The notes below the pieces were generated by a model, which was not told the DNA's origin, made no database searches, and worked only from the letters and a program-made list of their open reading frames with translations. Positions 489-55,721 of a DNA stretch of 64,000 nucleotides are shown here, piece by piece (position 1 is the stretch's first letter; every line of letters starts with the position of its first letter). This stretch comes from Propionimicrobium sp. PCR01-08-3. GTDB taxonomy: Bacteria > Actinomycetota > Actinomycetes > Propionibacteriales > Propionibacteriaceae. A program made the position numbers and the translations under genes. The stretch spans positions 372,001-436,000 of the forward strand of contig NZ_CP127390.1 of assembly GCF_030286045.1 (NCBI RefSeq). The letters are read 5' to 3'.

Positions 489-1169
489 ATGGCCAAGCGC
501 GAGACGGTCCTGAAAGTGACCGACCTGACAAAGAAATATGGCGATCACATCATCGTCGACCGATTCAATCTGTCCGTGAGCTCGGGTGAGGCCGTCGCAC
601 TGACCGGACGCAACGGCTCGGGCAAGTCGACCGTCTTGCGCTGCATCATCGGGGCCGACCGGCCCAGCGACGGACGCGTCGAGGCGTTCGGACGCAAGGT
701 CAGCGAAACCGACCCCCAGTTCCGCCGCGACGTGGCCACCGTGGTGGACGACCTGGACTTCTTCCCCGACCTGTCGGTTGTCGAACATCTCGACCTGTTG
801 GCCCGCGCTCACGGCCTGGCGGACCCCGACACACTGGTCGACGAGGTCTTGGACGAGGTGCAGCTGGTGCCGCAGTCCTCCCAGTTGCCCGGCACGCTGT
901 CCAGCGGCCAGCGCCGCCGGCTGGCCCTGGCGACCGCGCTGGTGCGTCCGCGCAAACTCCTGGTGATGGACGAGCCCGAGCAGCGCCTCGACGTCGAGGG
1001 TGTGGCCTGGCTGGGAGCCCGACTGAAACATGAAATGAGCAAAGGGTTGGCGATCGTGATGGCCAGCCACGAGCCGTCCCTGGTGAACGCGCTGGGAGCC
1101 AGAATCGTGCGGCTCGGCGAGGCGTCCGAGATGAGCGAGTCGCAGGCTGAGCCGGAGTATGAGTTGTGA
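489..1169 (+). CDS. ABC transporter ATP-binding protein
   Basis: This 226-residue protein is a single ABC ATPase domain that would power an unidentified transporter from the cytoplasmic side of the membrane. The Walker A loop GRNGSGKST, the signature LSSGQRRR, the Walker B segment LLVMDEP and a switch histidine in ASHEPS are all present in the right order. An open frame continues upstream to 315, with in-frame ATGs at 438, 480 and 489. I chose 489 because the similarity starts there, although its GGAGG is only a few bases away. Its stop overlaps the GTG start of the next gene, so the two are translationally coupled and probably form one complex. The substrate cannot be read from the sequence. 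Confidence 0.8.
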   Translation: MAKRETVLKVTDLTKKYGDHIIVDRFNLSVSSGEAVALTGRNGSGKSTVLRCIIGADRPSDGRVEAFGRKVSETDPQFRRDVATVVDDLDFFPDLSVVEHLDLLARAHGLADPDTLVDEVLDEVQLVPQSSQLPGTLSSGQRRRLALATALVRPRKLLVMDEPEQRLDVEGVAWLGARLKHEMSKGLAIVMASHEPSLVNALGARIVRLGEASEMSESQAEPEYEL

Positions 1170-2920
1170 GCCGTAACAGCAAACGCAATCGCCGTCAGTC
1201 GAAGCCCAAGGCTCAGCAGCCGCAGCAAACCGCGCCCGCCACCGAACTCGTGGTGGAAGAGCCGGTGACCTATGAGCGCACCGAGCCGTTCGCCGACGTC
1301 GAGGATTATGAGTCCGGGTTGGCCGACGAACGCCAACTTCGGCTGCTGATGAAGGACTGGCGCAAGGGACGCGCCACCCGCACGATCTGGGACATGATCA
1401 CCGACGGCTATGTGATGATCTTCTCGCTGGTCATCATTCTCGCAATGATCATCAGCGGCATCATGTCGATTCAGCAGTCGGCCGCCGGATGCTCCACCTC
1501 GGGCTGTCTGACCTCGCGCGGACTGCTGCCCTGGCTGGTGCTGGCCCTGTTGATCGTCGTCGGGGTGAGCGTGTCCCGGATCTTCGGCCCGGTGATCGCC
1601 TCGGCCGCCGAAGGTTTCTGGCTGCTGGACGCCCCGGTGCGCCGCAGTCGGCTGCTGAACCGGCGGCTGTGGGGAGTCGTCATCGGTGCCGGAGTGATCG
1701 GCGCGATCCTTGGTGGCGCGATCACGATGGTCACCGGCCTCAGCTGGGCATCGATCGCCACCTGGGCTGCCGCCATCGGATGCGCCACCGCCGCGGTGGT
1801 GGCGTTGGCGGCCATTGAGCAGGCAGCCGAACGCACCACGGTGCTGGCCATCGTCCAGACCGTGGTCGGGTTGGTGGCGACCGTCGTGCTGGTGGCGATG
1901 ATCTCGGTGGCCTCCGAGCTGCTGGTTCTGCCGATCGATCCGCGGCACACCGAGGAGTTCGGCATCGTGGTGCTTGCCGCCGCCGCGGTCTGCGTGGTGG
2001 TCTTTTCGGTCGTCGCCCGCCGCAAGCTGCACAACGTACGGCGCACCCGGCTGGTGTCGGGAGGCGATCTGCTGTCGGGCATGCAGGGCGCGATGTTCGC
2101 TTTGGACTTCGGATTGATGCGAGACATCGTGGTCAACCGCCGCTGGCTGACCAAGGGCCATGTGCAGCCGTCGAAGGGCCGGGCTTCGGGACGCGCGACC
2201 CTGGTCTGGCGGGAAGTCGATCGGGTGCTGCACAATCCGCGTGCCGTGCTGGTGCTGCTGGTGAGCGCCGTGGTGCCCTACGCGCTGCTGTCGATGGGCC
2301 TGGGCAACCTCACCCCGGTCATCACCGCCGTGGTTCTGCTGTTCGTCATGGTGCCCTTCTTCGATTCGCTTCGGGTGCTCAGCCGGACGAAGGGTCTGGC
2401 CCGCTGTTTCCCGATGTCGACCTCGCAGCTGAACGGTGCGTTGACGACGGTTCCCGCTGTCTTGGCGCTGATCTGGGGGCTCGCGGCCGGTCCGGCCTTC
2501 GTGCTGATCGGTGACCAGGACGCGACGTTGGCTGGTCTGGGCACCGGTTTGATGAAGGGCCTGATCACCGCGGCCGCCGGGTATATCGCCGCGATCCGCT
2601 GGGTGAGCGCGAAGTCGGCCGACTACTCCTCGCCGATGGTCGCCACCGGCTTCGGCGCCTTGCCTCCGGGCCTGATGTTCAACCTGCTGCGCGGATTCGA
2701 CGTAATCGCGTTGATCACGCTGCCGTTGCTGTTCAACTGGAGCCCGTGGATCTCGGTGATCATCGCCGTCATCTGCTACCAGGTGCTGCGCTCGGGCGGC
2801 ATCAATACTCAAGACCTGATGGAGCAGAACGCGGAGGCTCAGCGCGAACTTGCTGCGGCCAAGGGCGGAGCGTCCGGTTCGAAGGAGAAGATCAGCTACA
2901 CCCGCACGCCGCGCCGCTAG
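1166..2920 (+). CDS. Multi-pass membrane protein, DUF6297-like; likely partner of the ABC ATPase
   Basis: This 584-residue protein has a charged cytoplasmic N-terminus of about 80 residues (Lys/Arg-rich, then acidic), followed by roughly ten or more hydrophobic segments and a basic C-terminal tail. It resembles actinobacterial membrane proteins annotated DUF6297, from memory rather than a search. It starts with GTG inside the stop of the ABC ATPase gene (GTGA overlap), so I infer it is the membrane partner of that ATPase. It shows no permease motif that would name a substrate. The gene is followed by about 260 bases without a gene, holding the pseudoknot-like repeat. Confidence 0.6.
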   Translation: MSRNSKRNRRQSKPKAQQPQQTAPATELVVEEPVTYERTEPFADVEDYESGLADERQLRLLMKDWRKGRATRTIWDMITDGYVMIFSLVIILAMIISGIMSIQQSAAGCSTSGCLTSRGLLPWLVLALLIVVGVSVSRIFGPVIASAAEGFWLLDAPVRRSRLLNRRLWGVVIGAGVIGAILGGAITMVTGLSWASIATWAAAIGCATAAVVALAAIEQAAERTTVLAIVQTVVGLVATVVLVAMISVASELLVLPIDPRHTEEFGIVVLAAAAVCVVVFSVVARRKLHNVRRTRLVSGGDLLSGMQGAMFALDFGLMRDIVVNRRWLTKGHVQPSKGRASGRATLVWREVDRVLHNPRAVLVLLVSAVVPYALLSMGLGNLTPVITAVVLLFVMVPFFDSLRVLSRTKGLARCFPMSTSQLNGALTTVPAVLALIWGLAAGPAFVLIGDQDATLAGLGTGLMKGLITAAAGYIAAIRWVSAKSADYSSPMVATGFGALPPGLMFNLLRGFDVIALITLPLLFNWSPWISVIIAVICYQVLRSGGINTQDLMEQNAEAQRELAAAKGGASGSKEKISYTRTPRR

Positions 2921-3031
2921 CCGCAGCGCCGGACGTAGGCGGGTCGTGCGCGCAAACAATCGGGGCACTCAGGGTTTGGTTTGATCGTCGGACCGGCGGT
3001 CGGGCGCTGCCACGACCACCACCGATATGCT

Positions 3032-3089
3032 GCGCCAGATATTTGAAGCCGCGCCCGATATACCTGGCGCACCATTGCATTACGGGCGC
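3032..3089. repeat. 58-base four-block palindromic element, copy 1
   Basis: Four 7-base blocks are present: GCGCCAG (3032-3038), GCGCCCG (3051-3057), CTGGCGC (3064-3070) and CGGGCGC (3083-3089). Block 1 is the exact reverse complement of block 3, and block 2 of block 4, so the pairing is interlocked as in an H-type pseudoknot. Nested pairing of 1 with 4 and 2 with 3 is also possible with one mismatch each. The gaps are 12, 6 and 12 bases. An inverted copy with identical blocks and gaps lies at 55334-55391. This copy sits between two convergent gene ends. Confidence 0.85.
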
Positions 3090-3179
3090 ACAAATCGTCG
3101 ATGCGGACTAAACCAGGGCTAAACCTGAATCCGCCGATTTACCGCTGCTGCGCGATGGCGGCCATCGACGGAATCAGGC

Positions 3180-3863
3180 TCAACTCGGGTGACGAACGGA
3201 TCCTCCGGTCGCGAGCCGCATCAGGTCGGTGTCGAGATCGATGTCGAGTTCGGTGCCACCGGCCGAGCCGAAGCTGTGCTGATAGCTCTGCCACGACTCG
3301 TCCTTGATCGCACGGGAGAATCCGCTTTGCATCAGCAGCCAGAGCTCGAACGCGGCGCGATCGATGCGCGTGCCCAGCTCGGTGGAGTTCCAGTCCTCGC
3401 TTGCGGCGAAGACCGAGGTCGGCACCGGCAGAGTGCGCAGATACGCGAACAGTGCCCGCATCTGGTCGTCGATCACCAGGGCGTGGCGTGCGCTGCCGGC
3501 GGTCGCGGCCAACACGACAGGTTTGCCGATCAGCAGGTCGTTGTCGAGCACCTGGAAGAACGAGCTGAACAACCCGCTCGGCCCGGCCTTGTAAACCGGG
3601 GAACTCGCCACGATTCCATCGGCGGCGCCCAGCACTTCCACGGCGTGGGTGAGGCCCGACCCGAGCAGGGTCGACATCATAGCGGTGGTGATCTCAGCGG
3701 CGAGCGAGCGCAGATCGATGACGTCGATTTGCAGCTTGCCGCCATGTTGCTCGGCCTGTTCTGCGACACGGCCGGAGATCCGGTCGGCCAACATCCTGGT
3801 GGACGACGGGTCGCTGGTGCCGCCGCTGATCACGGCAAGCCGGTAGGTTGTTGGTTCAGTCAT
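3180..3863 (-). CDS. NADPH-dependent FMN reductase, CE1759-like
   Basis: This 227-residue flavodoxin-fold protein has the typical first strand and FMN phosphate loop (LAVISGGTSDPSSTRMLADRI) near the N-terminus and an SSPVYKAGPSGLFSSFFQVLD segment around residues 87-107. Such enzymes reduce free FMN with NAD(P)H and hand it to a partner oxygenase. The gene lies downstream of marR and a luciferase-like monooxygenase on the same strand, which matches the paired family I know as CE1759 (reductase) with CE1758 (oxygenase). I infer that it supplies reduced flavin to that enzyme. The substrate is unknown. A gap of 88 bases separates it from marR. Confidence 0.8.
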   Translation of the reverse strand: MTEPTTYRLAVISGGTSDPSSTRMLADRISGRVAEQAEQHGGKLQIDVIDLRSLAAEITTAMMSTLLGSGLTHAVEVLGAADGIVASSPVYKAGPSGLFSSFFQVLDNDLLIGKPVVLAATAGSARHALVIDDQMRALFAYLRTLPVPTSVFAASEDWNSTELGTRIDRAAFELWLLMQSGFSRAIKDESWQSYQHSFGSAGGTELDIDLDTDLMRLATGGSVRHPS

Positions 3864-4424: not shown

Positions 4425-5612
4425 TCAGATCAGGCTCGGGTAGGAGACCTGGCCCGATTCGCTGTCCTGATAGGGCGAGCCACCGGTCACATTGTCGCCG
4501 CGATTGGCGTTCGGACGCGGCTGCCGGGCGGGCTGGTCGCCGTACTTCGCCAACACCTGCGACTCGTGGGTCGGGGCCTCGGCCGATTCCGGATCCCTGC
4601 GGGACTCCAGTTCTTTCCGGAGCACCGGGATGACCTCTTCGCCGAGCAGATCGAGCTGGTTGAGCACCGTGGTCAGCGGCAGACCGGCATGATCCATCAG
4701 GAACAGCTGGCGCTGGTAGTCACCGAACGAGTCGTGGAAGGTGAGCGTCTTCTCGATCATTTCCTGCGGGCTGCCGACGGTCAGCGGCGTCATCTGCGTG
4801 AAGTCCTCCAGCGATGGGCCATGCCCGTAGACCGGGGCCTCATCGAAGTACGGGCGGAACTCCTTGACCGCGTCCTGCGACTTCTTGGCGAGATAGGCCT
4901 GACCACCGAGCCCGACGATCGCCTGCTTTTGGTTGCCATGGCCGTAGTGCTCGAAACGCTTGCGGTAGAAGTCGATCAGCCGCTTGGAGTGTTCGGTGGG
5001 CCAGAAGATGTGGTTGGCGAAGAACCCGTTGCCGTAGTAGGCGGCCTGTTCGGCGATTTCCGGCGTGCGGATCGAGCCGTGCCAGACGAAGGGCGGCACA
5101 TCGTCCAGGGGCCGCGGGGTCGAGGTGAAACCCTGCAGCGGCGTGCGGAACTCGCCCTCCCAATCGACGACATCCTCGCACCATAGCCGGTGCAGCAGGT
5201 TGTAGTTCTCCAGCGCCAGCGGCAGGCCCTGGCGGATGTCGGCGCCGAACCATGGGTAGACCGGAGCGGTGTTGCCGCGTCCGAGCATCAGATCCATCCG
5301 GCCGCCCGAGATATGCTGCAGCATCGCGTACTCCTCGGCGATGCGCACCGGATCATTCGTGGTGATCAGGGTGGTCGAGGTGCTCACGATCAGCTTCTTG
5401 GTGATTGCGGCGATGGCCGCCAGCAGGGTGGTCGGCGATGAGGAGAAGAACGGCGGGTTGTGGTGCTCCCCGATCGCGAAGACGTCCATGCCGACCTCCT
5501 CGGTCTTCTGAGCGATCTGGACGATGCCCTTGATACGCTCCGCCTCGCTGGGCGTGTATCCCGACACCGGATCGCGCGTGATGTCGCTGACCGACATGAT
5601 CCCGAACTGCAT
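4425..5612 (-). CDS. LLM-class flavin-dependent oxidoreductase, CE1758-like
   Basis: The 395-residue product is a bacterial luciferase-like monooxygenase. It opens with MQFGIMSVSDITRDPVSG and has the family segments FAIGEHHNPPFFSSSPTTLLAAIAAITKKL and SGGRMDLMLGRG. Such enzymes use reduced FMN and O2 to oxidise organic substrates. I start at 5612, not at an in-frame ATG at 5660, because family similarity begins at MQFGI and a GGGGAA sequence precedes it. A hydrophilic tail of about 50 residues at the C-terminus looks disordered. It is the first gene of a three-gene minus-strand unit with marR and an FMN reductase. Its substrate is unknown. Confidence 0.85.
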   Translation of the reverse strand: MQFGIMSVSDITRDPVSGYTPSEAERIKGIVQIAQKTEEVGMDVFAIGEHHNPPFFSSSPTTLLAAIAAITKKLIVSTSTTLITTNDPVRIAEEYAMLQHISGGRMDLMLGRGNTAPVYPWFGADIRQGLPLALENYNLLHRLWCEDVVDWEGEFRTPLQGFTSTPRPLDDVPPFVWHGSIRTPEIAEQAAYYGNGFFANHIFWPTEHSKRLIDFYRKRFEHYGHGNQKQAIVGLGGQAYLAKKSQDAVKEFRPYFDEAPVYGHGPSLEDFTQMTPLTVGSPQEMIEKTLTFHDSFGDYQRQLFLMDHAGLPLTTVLNQLDLLGEEVIPVLRKELESRRDPESAEAPTHESQVLAKYGDQPARQPRPNANRGDNVTGGSPYQDSESGQVSYPSLI

Positions 5613-5961
5613 GATCGTTCCCCGTGTTCCCTTCACGAAACTAAATGCGTTTGCATGCATCTCAACAATCCGGGTGCCCTGTTATTCCCGATGCGACACA
5701 ATGCGGGGAGTGCGAAATCTGCGGGGTAGCGATGCGCGTTCTGGTGCTCCGTGGTCGAGCTGGCTGCTGATAGAGGACACCAGCAGGACGGTTGCCGGTC
5801 CGGTTCGAGGCCCGGGTCGGATGAAGTGGAATGGGCCAATCATGTTGGTGCGCACAACAAGATATCGTGAGTGGTTTTTCCTCCTGACGAGTAAGAGCAC
5901 CCACAACGGGGACAGCTGAGCAAGATATGCAGATGGTGATGCCGGGGCGGGCGATACCCTC
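5613..5961. other. Intergenic region between menF and the flavin operon
   Basis: These 349 bases separate the end of menF from the start of the luciferase-like gene, both on the minus strand. Frames in the stretch have no ribosome binding site and resemble nothing I know. It should carry the promoter of the flavin operon. A TGCATGCA palindrome with flanking near-repeats lies around 5644-5660, about 35-45 bases upstream of the chosen start, and is a weak candidate for a MarR site. Confidence 0.4.
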
Positions 5962-54828: not shown

Positions 54829-55218
54829 ATGGCGAAGCTGAGCACCGAGGAGCTCCTTGACCAGTTCAAGGAGATGTCCCTCATCGAGTTGTCCGAGTTC
54901 GTGAAGGCTTTCGAAGACGCCTTCGATGTCAAGGCCGCCGCTCCGGTTGCCGTCGCCGCTGCCGCAGCTCCGGCTGCCGGCGAGGAGGCTCCGGCCGCCG
55001 AGGAGAAGACCGAGTTCGACGTCATCCTCGAGGCCGCCGGCGACAAGAAGATCGGCGTCATCAAGGCCGTTCGTTCGCTGACCAGCCTGGGCCTCAAGGA
55101 GGCCAAGGATCTCGTCGAGTCTGCCCCGAAGGCCGTTCTCGAGAACGCCAAGAAGGAAGACGCCGACAAGGCCAAGGAGGCCCTGGAGGCCGAGGGCGCC
55201 ACCGTCACCCTCAAGTGA
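54829..55218 (+). CDS. rplL: 50S ribosomal protein L7/L12
   Basis: The 129-residue protein has the N-terminal dimerisation domain ([31 protein letters not shown]), an Ala/Pro-rich hinge, and the C-terminal factor-binding domain ([71 protein letters not shown]). It recruits elongation and initiation factors to the ribosome. ATG with AGAAAGGA upstream; a terminator lies 52 bases after the stop. Confidence 0.97.
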
Positions 55219-55270: not shown

Positions 55271-55300
55271 AGGGGCGGACGCATTGCGTCCGCCCCTCTT
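55271..55300 (+). terminator. Terminator after rplL
   Basis: A 12-base perfect stem, AGGGGCGGACGC and GCGTCCGCCCCT, with loop ATT is followed by CTT. It should end most rplJL transcripts before rpoB. The rest of the 571-base rplL-rpoB gap has the pseudoknot-like repeat and the rpoB promoter palindrome. Confidence 0.85.
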
Positions 55301-55333
55301 CGCGTCCTCGCCGCCACTCGCTTGGCGGTAGGC

Positions 55334-55391
55334 GCGCCCGATGTAGTAAGCCGCGCCAGGTATATCGGGCGCGTGATCGGATTTCTGGCGC
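55334..55391. repeat. 58-base four-block palindromic element, copy 2 (inverted)
   Basis: Blocks GCGCCCG (55334-55340), GCGCCAG (55353-55359), CGGGCGC (55366-55372) and CTGGCGC (55385-55391) are spaced 12, 6 and 12 bases apart. This is the exact reverse-complement arrangement of 3032-3089. The central 20 bases (GCGCCAGGTATATCGGGCGC) are identical in both copies. More inverted repeats follow: GTGATCGG (55373-55380) with CCGATCAC (55415-55422), and CGGGAAT (55391-55397) with ATTCCCG (55411-55417). Confidence 0.85.
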
Positions 55392-55721
55392 GGGAATGCG
55401 GGCGAATGCGATTCCCGATCACCAGGCCGAGGACCGCGCGATCGCGCAAACGCGGCTGAGCCAGCGGGTAAGCGGCAATCCGAGCGCACTATCTGCGCTC
55501 CGCAGTCATCCAGATGGCCCGTTGGCAACCCGCTTGCAGCAAGCTGGTGGCCAGCAAAATAGCCGGCTCACCGGCATCTCCGCTTGACTGATGGGCCTTG
55601 CTTGATGCACCCTTTTCGTGGAAGCGAGCCCAGGACCAGACGGGCGGGTCGGAGTTGACCCGTTGATTTGCATCCGGTATATAGCGCGAGCTATAGTTTT
55701 TTGTTGCACATATCGTTTGGT

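Follow-up and report, generated by a model that had tools for sequence, protein, structure and literature searches.

Worn four-unit palindromes and a palindrome-bracketed nuclease-like gene: a probable, so far overlooked type of small mobile DNA in actinobacteria

Two short palindromic elements in a 64-kb stretch of DNA are best read as worn, gene-less copies of a four-unit palindrome that is partnered with a mobile palindrome-gene-palindrome cassette and spread by the action of a nuclease. We put the probability of this reading at roughly 0.7. Together with its gene, the palindrome appears to be a type of small mobile DNA that has so far gone unnoticed. The evidence comes from the copies scattered through several genomes, from a gene that such copies bracket, from the recurrence of that bracketing in other actinobacteria, and from sites that are occupied in one genome and empty in another.

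Results

Two copies of one element in opposite orientations

The window is the whole 64-kb stretch of DNA that was analyzed (positions 372001 to 436000 of contig C1 in its own genome, here G000). A pattern scan found the four 7-base blocks at 12-6-12 spacing exactly as the original prediction had described them, at 3032 to 3089 and 55334 to 55391. At up to three mismatches the four-block pattern matched the window at these two already noted places only, and 100 dinucleotide shuffles of the window gave a mean of 0.00 matches. The whole modeled element of copy 1 is 78 bp long and lies at 3022 to 3099 (unstranded; covariance model R1, E value of 4.3e-8). Its plus-strand units are GCGCCAG at 3032 to 3038 and, 19 bp past it, GCGCCCG at 3051 to 3057, followed by inverted, minus-strand units at 3064 to 3070 and 3083 to 3089. 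Copy 2 is modeled at 55324 to 55401 (unstranded; R1, E value of 8.6e-9) in the orientation opposite to copy 1, with plus-strand units GCGCCCG at 55334 to 55340 and GCGCCAG at 55353 to 55359 and inverted, minus-strand units at 55366 to 55372 and 55385 to 55391. The units were placed from the sequence and the pattern scan. The R1 training set includes both window copies, so their E values are not independent. The 20-base center, said at the outset to be identical, is identical after one copy is reverse complemented and not as read on one strand, so the two are the same element in opposite orientations. The interlocked order of the blocks hinges on one A/C position per block.

Both gene contexts were located as expected. 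Copy 1 sits between the convergent open reading frames (ORFs) 1166 to 2920 (plus strand) and 3180 to 3863 (minus strand), and copy 2 sits downstream of rplL (54829 to 55218, plus strand) and before rpoB, with gene names read from the translations. A separate hairpin at about 55271 to 55297, upstream of copy 2, was seen by eye.

A family of nested palindromes

The suggestion of a REP-like or multisite DNA element with further copies was borne out by searching the genome and its relatives for the pattern. At up to three mismatches G000 holds 25 copies, compared with 0 for a reversed control pattern. At up to two mismatches, copies are also present in 4 of 36 other genomes, and the counts across the 37 genomes were 24 in G000, 11 in G005, 15 in G007, 13 in G010, and 2 in G020, with no copies at that threshold in the remaining 32; the reversed control matched a single place over the 37 genomes, in G031. 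The element unit is approximately GCGCC[AC]GRNAT, present twice in direct orientation at a 19-bp period and then twice inverted, and the element is about 72 to 78 bp long. Viewed as a nested palindrome, it has 26-bp arms and a 6-bp center, and the flanks also match in many G000 copies. The two window copies and the copy at locus L032 are paired at 16 of 26 nested positions, and the remaining 22 of the 25 G000 copies at 18 to 25 of 26. By ORF calls, 20 of the 25 G000 copies are intergenic (13 in codirectional, 6 in convergent, and 1 in divergent gaps), and the five calls inside ORFs include a doubtful antisense ORF at rplL. ORF calls place 3 of the 13 G010 copies in gaps between divergent genes.

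The positions of the copies bear on a possible parS-like or nucleoid-occlusion-like role, in which the elements would tag the chromosome's origin half. With dnaA taken as the origin and the contigs taken as circular, G000 has 20 of its 25 copies in that half (P = 0.004), and G010 has 12 of its 13 there (P = 0.003). However, the bias seen in those two genomes is absent in G005, where 6 of 12 copies fall in the origin half, and positions turn over between species. We rejected origin marking, which on this evidence is extremely improbable.

The original prediction had offered an H-type pseudoknot, formed by interlocked pairing of the blocks, as one possible structure. Pairing was compared over an alignment of 61 copies. 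Of the 16 G007 copies present in fetched stretches, 7 were omitted from it as near-identical orthologues of copies in G005. Under nested pairing, 82.1% of cells were paired versus 70.4% in shuffles, double-changed cells numbered 286 versus 132.0, and the covariation score was 0.344 versus 0.146; the 21 nested pairs with double-sided change were not in excess over shuffles (20.4). Under interlocked pairing, the corresponding values were 90.0% versus 87.8%, 22 cells versus 13.0, and a score of 0.064 versus 0.039, above all 500 shuffles. The interlocked signal is much weaker than the nested one and is carried by two pairs (shuffle mean, 2.4 pairs with double-sided change), and some such signal is expected under either pairing because the interlocked blocks belong to one repeated unit. 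With 22 double-changed cells and a score of 0.064 set against 286 cells and 0.344, the pseudoknot is not favored, and it was rejected as the better reading, compensatory change in the interlocked helices beyond that in the nested ones not being found in the 61 copies. The interpretation first given to the elements is thus supported in part, for the REP-like, multisite DNA element, with the pseudoknot as the less favored structure.

Copy-by-copy pairing was also followed within single genomes. In G000 alone there was no copy-by-copy covariation, with 73.5% paired versus 75.8% when the 3' letters were redealt, and its linkers paired at 0.450 versus 0.485 with arms swapped. Copy-by-copy pairing of the linkers is present in G010 (0.904 versus 0.764; P = 0.000) and in G005 (0.781 versus 0.648; P = 0.002), and the result for G007 is only suggestive (0.792 versus 0.711; P = 0.084). 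The arms vary between genomes, and complementarity tends to persist. These results from the four genomes indicate that the features kept are the units and their spacing, and that the perfection of the hairpin depends on the genome.

An action of the elements as RNA, whether as pseudoknot, hairpin, or bidirectional terminator at 3' ends, would fit a consensus that is a long hairpin, two intact copies that fold at −74 and −71.9 kcal/mol (z = −14.6 and −14.8), and the many copies downstream of genes. It is nonetheless highly improbable, given that the window copies fold hardly beyond shuffles (z = −1.78 and −1.26), that G000 linkers show no copy-by-copy covariation, and that the same palindromes travel with a gene. 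A terminator was rejected, no terminator-like call falling on either window copy; the single call was elsewhere, at 55575 to 55562. At gathering scores, Rfam found four tRNAs in the window and nothing else.

A nuclease-like gene between palindromes

Pairs of copies about 1.1 kb apart enclose a gene of one family in G000, G007, and G010. The same gene in G005 has an intact copy on one side and an internally deleted remnant on the other. This remnant, at L040:8090-8130, has a deletion between its arms and is intact in the close genome G007. The bracketed gene of G000 (L038:4832-5738, which is C1:3081831-3082737 of that genome) runs in two overlapping frames, 4832 to 5107 and 5097 to 5738, and an assembly error may be behind this. 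Two further G000 relatives of the nuclease gene, at L118 and L119, have no adjoining strong palindrome, defined as one that reaches 18 or more on the palindrome score used here. Four cassettes were read, and no second gene was called between their palindromes. The two GCGCC-type palindromes of G020 occur in a genome with no relative of the gene at an E value of 1e-10, and they may be an orphan family or one whose gene was lost.

The protein has about 300 residues and joins an AbiEi-like half to a nuclease half that resembles Vsr and I-Bth0305I. The N-terminal half matches AbiEi profiles with a best E value of 2.9e-13. Pfam and NCBIfam gave nothing above the cutoff, with weak matches to AbiEi_1 (E value of 0.0063) and DUF559 (E value of 0.16). 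An AlphaFold2 model of the protein has a mean pLDDT of 94.0 and a pTM of 0.90. In fold comparisons of this model, the I-Bth0305I domain (3r3p_A) covered residues 191 to 302 (Z = 11.6; root mean square deviation [rmsd], 2.7 over 97 residues), Vsr (1cw0_A) matched the C-terminal half (Z = 9.9), and the AbiEi antitoxin structure 6y8q covered residues 2 to 186 (Z = 9.5; rmsd, 6.8 over 161 residues). Nucleotidyltransferase toxins also match the N-terminal half in the fold search, at a middling Z of up to 8.6. Foldseek alone gave an E value of 3.7e-5 for AbiEi and only 0.1 for I-Bth0305I (3r3p_B). An alignment of 41 sequences has invariant acidic residues in the C-terminal half, namely E194, D227, E238, and D240 in protein P0001. 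The product of the bracketed gene is an unusual protein that probably cuts DNA. Relatives carry the public names DUF559, AbiEi-domain, or hypothetical protein, and one plasmid relative is annotated as AbiEi. Plasmid records hold eight relatives, all below 60% identity, and phage records hold no relative of the nuclease protein. Two genomes, G013 and G099, have 10 to 11 relatives of the nuclease gene each.

Bracketing across actinobacteria

Of 198 genomes from the bacterial family, 122 had relatives of the gene (E value of 1e-10). A first set comprised 39 of these genes, each with 8 kb on either side. They were chosen manually among the higher-ranking matches, in most cases one to a genome and not close to a contig end. 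Strong palindromes occurred within 500 bp of the gene 24 times versus 9 times in the other ∼585 kb; 16 of the 39 genes had one within 600 bp, 7 of them on both sides. When only intergenic DNA was considered, strong palindromes were present in 22 of 68 gene-adjoining regions versus 7 of 184 others, and shuffled flanks gave 0 in 780. The near palindromes with a clear internal direct repeat had a best period of 19 bp in 18 of 21 cases.

A joint test, which asks for a palindrome together with a 19- or 20-bp repeat and is looser than the strong-palindrome score, marked 24 of the 39 genes as bracketed, 19 of them on both sides and the others on one, compared with 5 of 975 far windows; at wrong periods it scored 0 and 1 of 78. 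Because the test was devised after the loci of the first set had been inspected, it was run unchanged on held-out loci, 80 in all and drawn from named genomes, of which 69 were kept after nine already used, L189 (match length), and L218 (short flank) were dropped. There, 46 of 69 genes were bracketed, 20 of them on both sides and the others on one, compared with 4 of 520 far windows, and the wrong periods gave 3 and 1 of 138. Among the 46 are genes from 15 named actinobacterial genera: Microlunatus, Micropruina, Propionicimonas, Acidipropionibacterium, Blastococcus, Geodermatophilus, Modestobacter, Pseudonocardia, Nocardia, Rhodococcus, Prescottella, Williamsia, Gordonia, Tomitella, and Hoyosella. 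The palindromes of the relatives have the same build as the G000 element and a different sequence. No recognizable palindrome adjoined 15 of the 39 and 23 of the 69 genes, and these proportions are not those of random samples of the family, because the genes of both sets came from searches with one protein or with a small alignment of its relatives.

The palindromes could be operators, with an AbiEi-like regulator or nucleoid factor binding them at its own gene in autoregulation and also elsewhere, some other route having spread them, and the nuclease half serving defense or repair. AbiEi antitoxins autoregulate through inverted repeats, the N-terminal half resembles AbiEi, and the G000 units are kept while the linkers lack copy-by-copy pairing, as would be the case for protein sites. 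Such a role at a promoter alone would not call for palindromes on both sides of 19 of 39 and 20 of 69 genes, and few copies lie in divergent gaps (1 of 25 in G000 and 3 of 13 in G010), a count to be read with the reservation that codirectional gaps may also hold promoters. Operators would also leave unexplained that the gene and both palindromes are missing together from empty sites and that eight identical scattered copies in Acidipropionibacterium jensenii imply recent copying, both described below. We consider the operator explanation unlikely.

Palindromes match their gene and scatter without it

The upstream and downstream palindromes of one gene have a mean likeness of 0.87 and a minimum of 0.77 (19 loci, one counted twice); for palindromes of different genes, the mean is 0.44, the 95th percentile 0.61, and the maximum 0.87. 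Palindrome likeness rises with protein identity for both the N-terminal part (Mantel r = 0.386) and the C-terminal part (r = 0.288), with 0 of 500 permutations reaching the value for either part and near-identical pairs excluded, a correlation that cannot tell recognition from shared ancestry.

Scattered copies were counted for two further palindrome types, and in G167, G172, G156, G165, G122, and G112 they carry the unit that adjoins the gene. A CGCCCCC-type pattern, derived from gene flanks in G165, G167, and G172, has 54 copies in G167, 17 in G172, 9 in G156, 6 in G165, 4 in G015, 2 in G166, and 1 in G159, with none in the other 8 of 15 genomes searched. A CCGCACC-type pattern, derived from G122, has 72 copies in G122, 38 in G112, 37 in G121, 15 in G113, 3 in G111, and 2 in G116, with none in the other 6 of 12 genomes searched. 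Reversed controls of both types gave 0. Placed copies of these scattered types flank the gene on both sides in G165, G167, G156, G112, and G116 and on one side in G111, and they include cases missed by the strict palindrome score; the gene-to-copy tie was not made for G113, G015, G159, and G166. The CCGCACC-type copies of G121 are unlike the palindromes beside the gene examined there (L137), and another relative of the gene in that genome may partner the 37 copies. Hybrid elements with two unit types in one palindrome occur in G156 and G112 (GCTACCG with GCCCCCG, and CCGCGCGC with CCGCACCC). From their sequences, these look as if units of two nuclease lineages recombine.

Empty sites and recent copies

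Related genomes carry the cassette at different places. At the pta site, the G000 cassette occupies a gap of ∼1.39 kb, and the flanking genes are adjacent in G001, G002, G003, G004, G005, and G007; G006 was not resolved in this comparison. At the glyRS site, the cassette is present in G005 and G007, and homologous DNA is joined by ∼107 bp in G001 (1,366 bp in G005) and by ∼115 bp in G004. There is no cassette at this site in G000, G002, or G006, and G003 gave no match; G000 and G006 are not clean empty sites because the far side is not homologous. The gene and both palindromes are absent jointly at the empty sites.

When the two nearest ORFs on either side are used to define a place, 0 of 12 G005 elements share one with a G000 element. 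Eleven of the 12 G005 sites are common to G007, with flanks 92 to 100% alike, so movement is not frequent. No clean filled/empty pair was found between G005 and G007, and the fetched G005 DNA has nothing that corresponds to the stretch holding four of the G007 elements. One orthologous pair of elements (L045:5088 in G005 and L057:5053 in G007) differs in one arm, which has switched to another common arm type and therefore suggests exchange or conversion between copies.

A. jensenii DSM 20535 (L193; the same places are G038 and G214) has nine copies on six contigs. Eight are identical over 66 bp and the ninth differs at one position; the gene lies between two of these nine copies. The eight identical copies imply recent copying. 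Homology stops about 3 bp outside the 66 bp, CCA and TGG being the most frequent outer bases (five of nine), and the flanks are unrelated beyond that point. By eye, and without a base-level empty site, no target-site duplication was seen at the nine copies. Four congeners lack the element at one of the sites, where the intergenic DNA is too divergent to place the junction. The 73-nucleotide A. jensenii element had no match in plasmid records. A half element is present at L256:2989-3021 in A. jensenii, consisting of two direct units and then unrelated sequence from the center onward.

The original prediction had also pointed to a REP-associated transposase (TnpA-REP) gene. The Y1 transposase family, PF01797, was found in 0 of 9 genomes, among them G000, G005, G007, G010, and G020, with positive controls, and a RAYT/TnpAREP partner was rejected. 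This negative also bears on the reading of the palindromes as MITE-like, nonautonomous elements of an ordinary transposon with the nuclease gene as a frequent passenger, although Y1 was the sole transposase family searched. Elements that are short, repeated, built of inverted repeats, and mostly intergenic would suit that reading. It is quite improbable all the same, since palindromes that flank the gene on both sides lie within 500 bp of it, so that a transposase gene would hardly fit between them, the four cassettes read gave no call of a second gene, palindrome sequence tracks gene sequence, and no target-site duplication was seen by eye at the recent A. jensenii copies.

Discussion

We return to the reading in which the window elements are worn relics of a gene-palindrome partnership. 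The full partner of the palindrome is the palindrome-gene-palindrome cassette, placed differently in related genomes, with gene-less palindromes scattered mostly between genes. From the bracketing and the joint absence at empty sites, we infer that the nuclease spreads the palindromes. The AbiEi-like half would bind the units, the nuclease half would nick or cut at the palindrome or at the target, and the palindrome, sometimes with the gene, would thereby be copied elsewhere. The system in G000 is probably inactive, because its bracketed gene lies in two frames and its copies have drifted. In broader terms, we think it fairly likely that there is a large, so far overlooked actinobacterial class of mobile DNA in which a one-gene nuclease, part AbiEi type and part homing-like, recognizes a four-unit palindrome, the cassette moves and seeds tens of gene-less palindromes, the palindromes are lineage specific, and the whole is independent of REP/RAYT.

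To our knowledge, REP palindromes have been tied to HuH TnpAREP alone. If the present reading is true, there is a second, unrelated gene-palindrome partnership, and the arrangement arose twice. It would also give a likely role to a protein family named DUF559, AbiEi-domain, or hypothetical, and would offer numerous naturally occurring combinations of protein and DNA site from which specificity could be decoded. The apparently recent spread and the bracketed gene in A. jensenii DSM 20535 make the question directly testable. Among the matches listed from a partial full-text literature (title and start of abstract), none tied AbiEi-, DUF559-, or Vsr-like proteins to dispersed palindromes, which is not proof of absence in print because that coverage is partial. 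In PMC12306157, Acidipropionibacterium thoenii appears in one row of a table of counts, and the text does not mention RAYT, nuclease, or transposase.

Three known kinds of system each share a part of what is seen here. The C-terminal fold is like that of the homing endonuclease I-Bth0305I (EDxHD) and of Vsr (Z of 11.6 and 9.9), and, as with homing endonucleases, the nuclease-like gene is inserted at some sites and absent there in relatives. Unlike homing endonuclease genes, it is bracketed by palindromes that also occur as gene-less copies (up to 72 per genome), and the N-terminal half of its product is AbiEi-like. That half recalls the AbiE type IV toxin-antitoxin system in its matches to AbiEi profiles (E value of 2.9e-13) and to 6y8q; in contrast to AbiE, it is fused to a nuclease-like half, and no second gene was called inside the four cassettes read. 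The IS200/IS605 elements, as the accessible part of PMC8266576 describes them, likewise have a gene bordered by palindromes, whereas the Y1 transposase was lacking here in nine of nine genomes.

The closest likeness is to REPtrons (TnpAREP with REP palindromes), of which the system would be an independent analogue. In the same accessible text, REPtrons are described as having dispersed intergenic palindromes, a single palindrome-bordered gene, inverse combinations of repeats, and coevolution of gene and palindrome, with the palindromes tied to one enzyme type, HuH TnpAREP (PMC8266576). Set beside that account of REPtron or REPIN-RAYT systems, scattered intergenic palindromes, one bordered gene, inverse combinations, and gene-palindrome correspondence are present here too, and the palindromes that border the gene are also dispersed genome-wide. 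The differences are that the protein here is AbiEi-like plus Vsr-like and not HuH/Y1, and that the units repeat at 19 or 20 bp in a two-plus-two inverted order with no shared GTAG or CGTC end tag. In the outer 10-base flanks of 61 copies, GTAG occurred once inward and twice outward and CGTC three and seven times. A further difference is that the cassette here has empty sites, whereas the part of PMC8266576 at hand states no evidence of mobility for tnpAREP. We do not class the system as a REPtron, because both the HuH transposase and the terminal tag are lacking. By analogy, it is best read as a palindrome-gene system that would work like a REPtron, with an unrelated protein in the place of the transposase.
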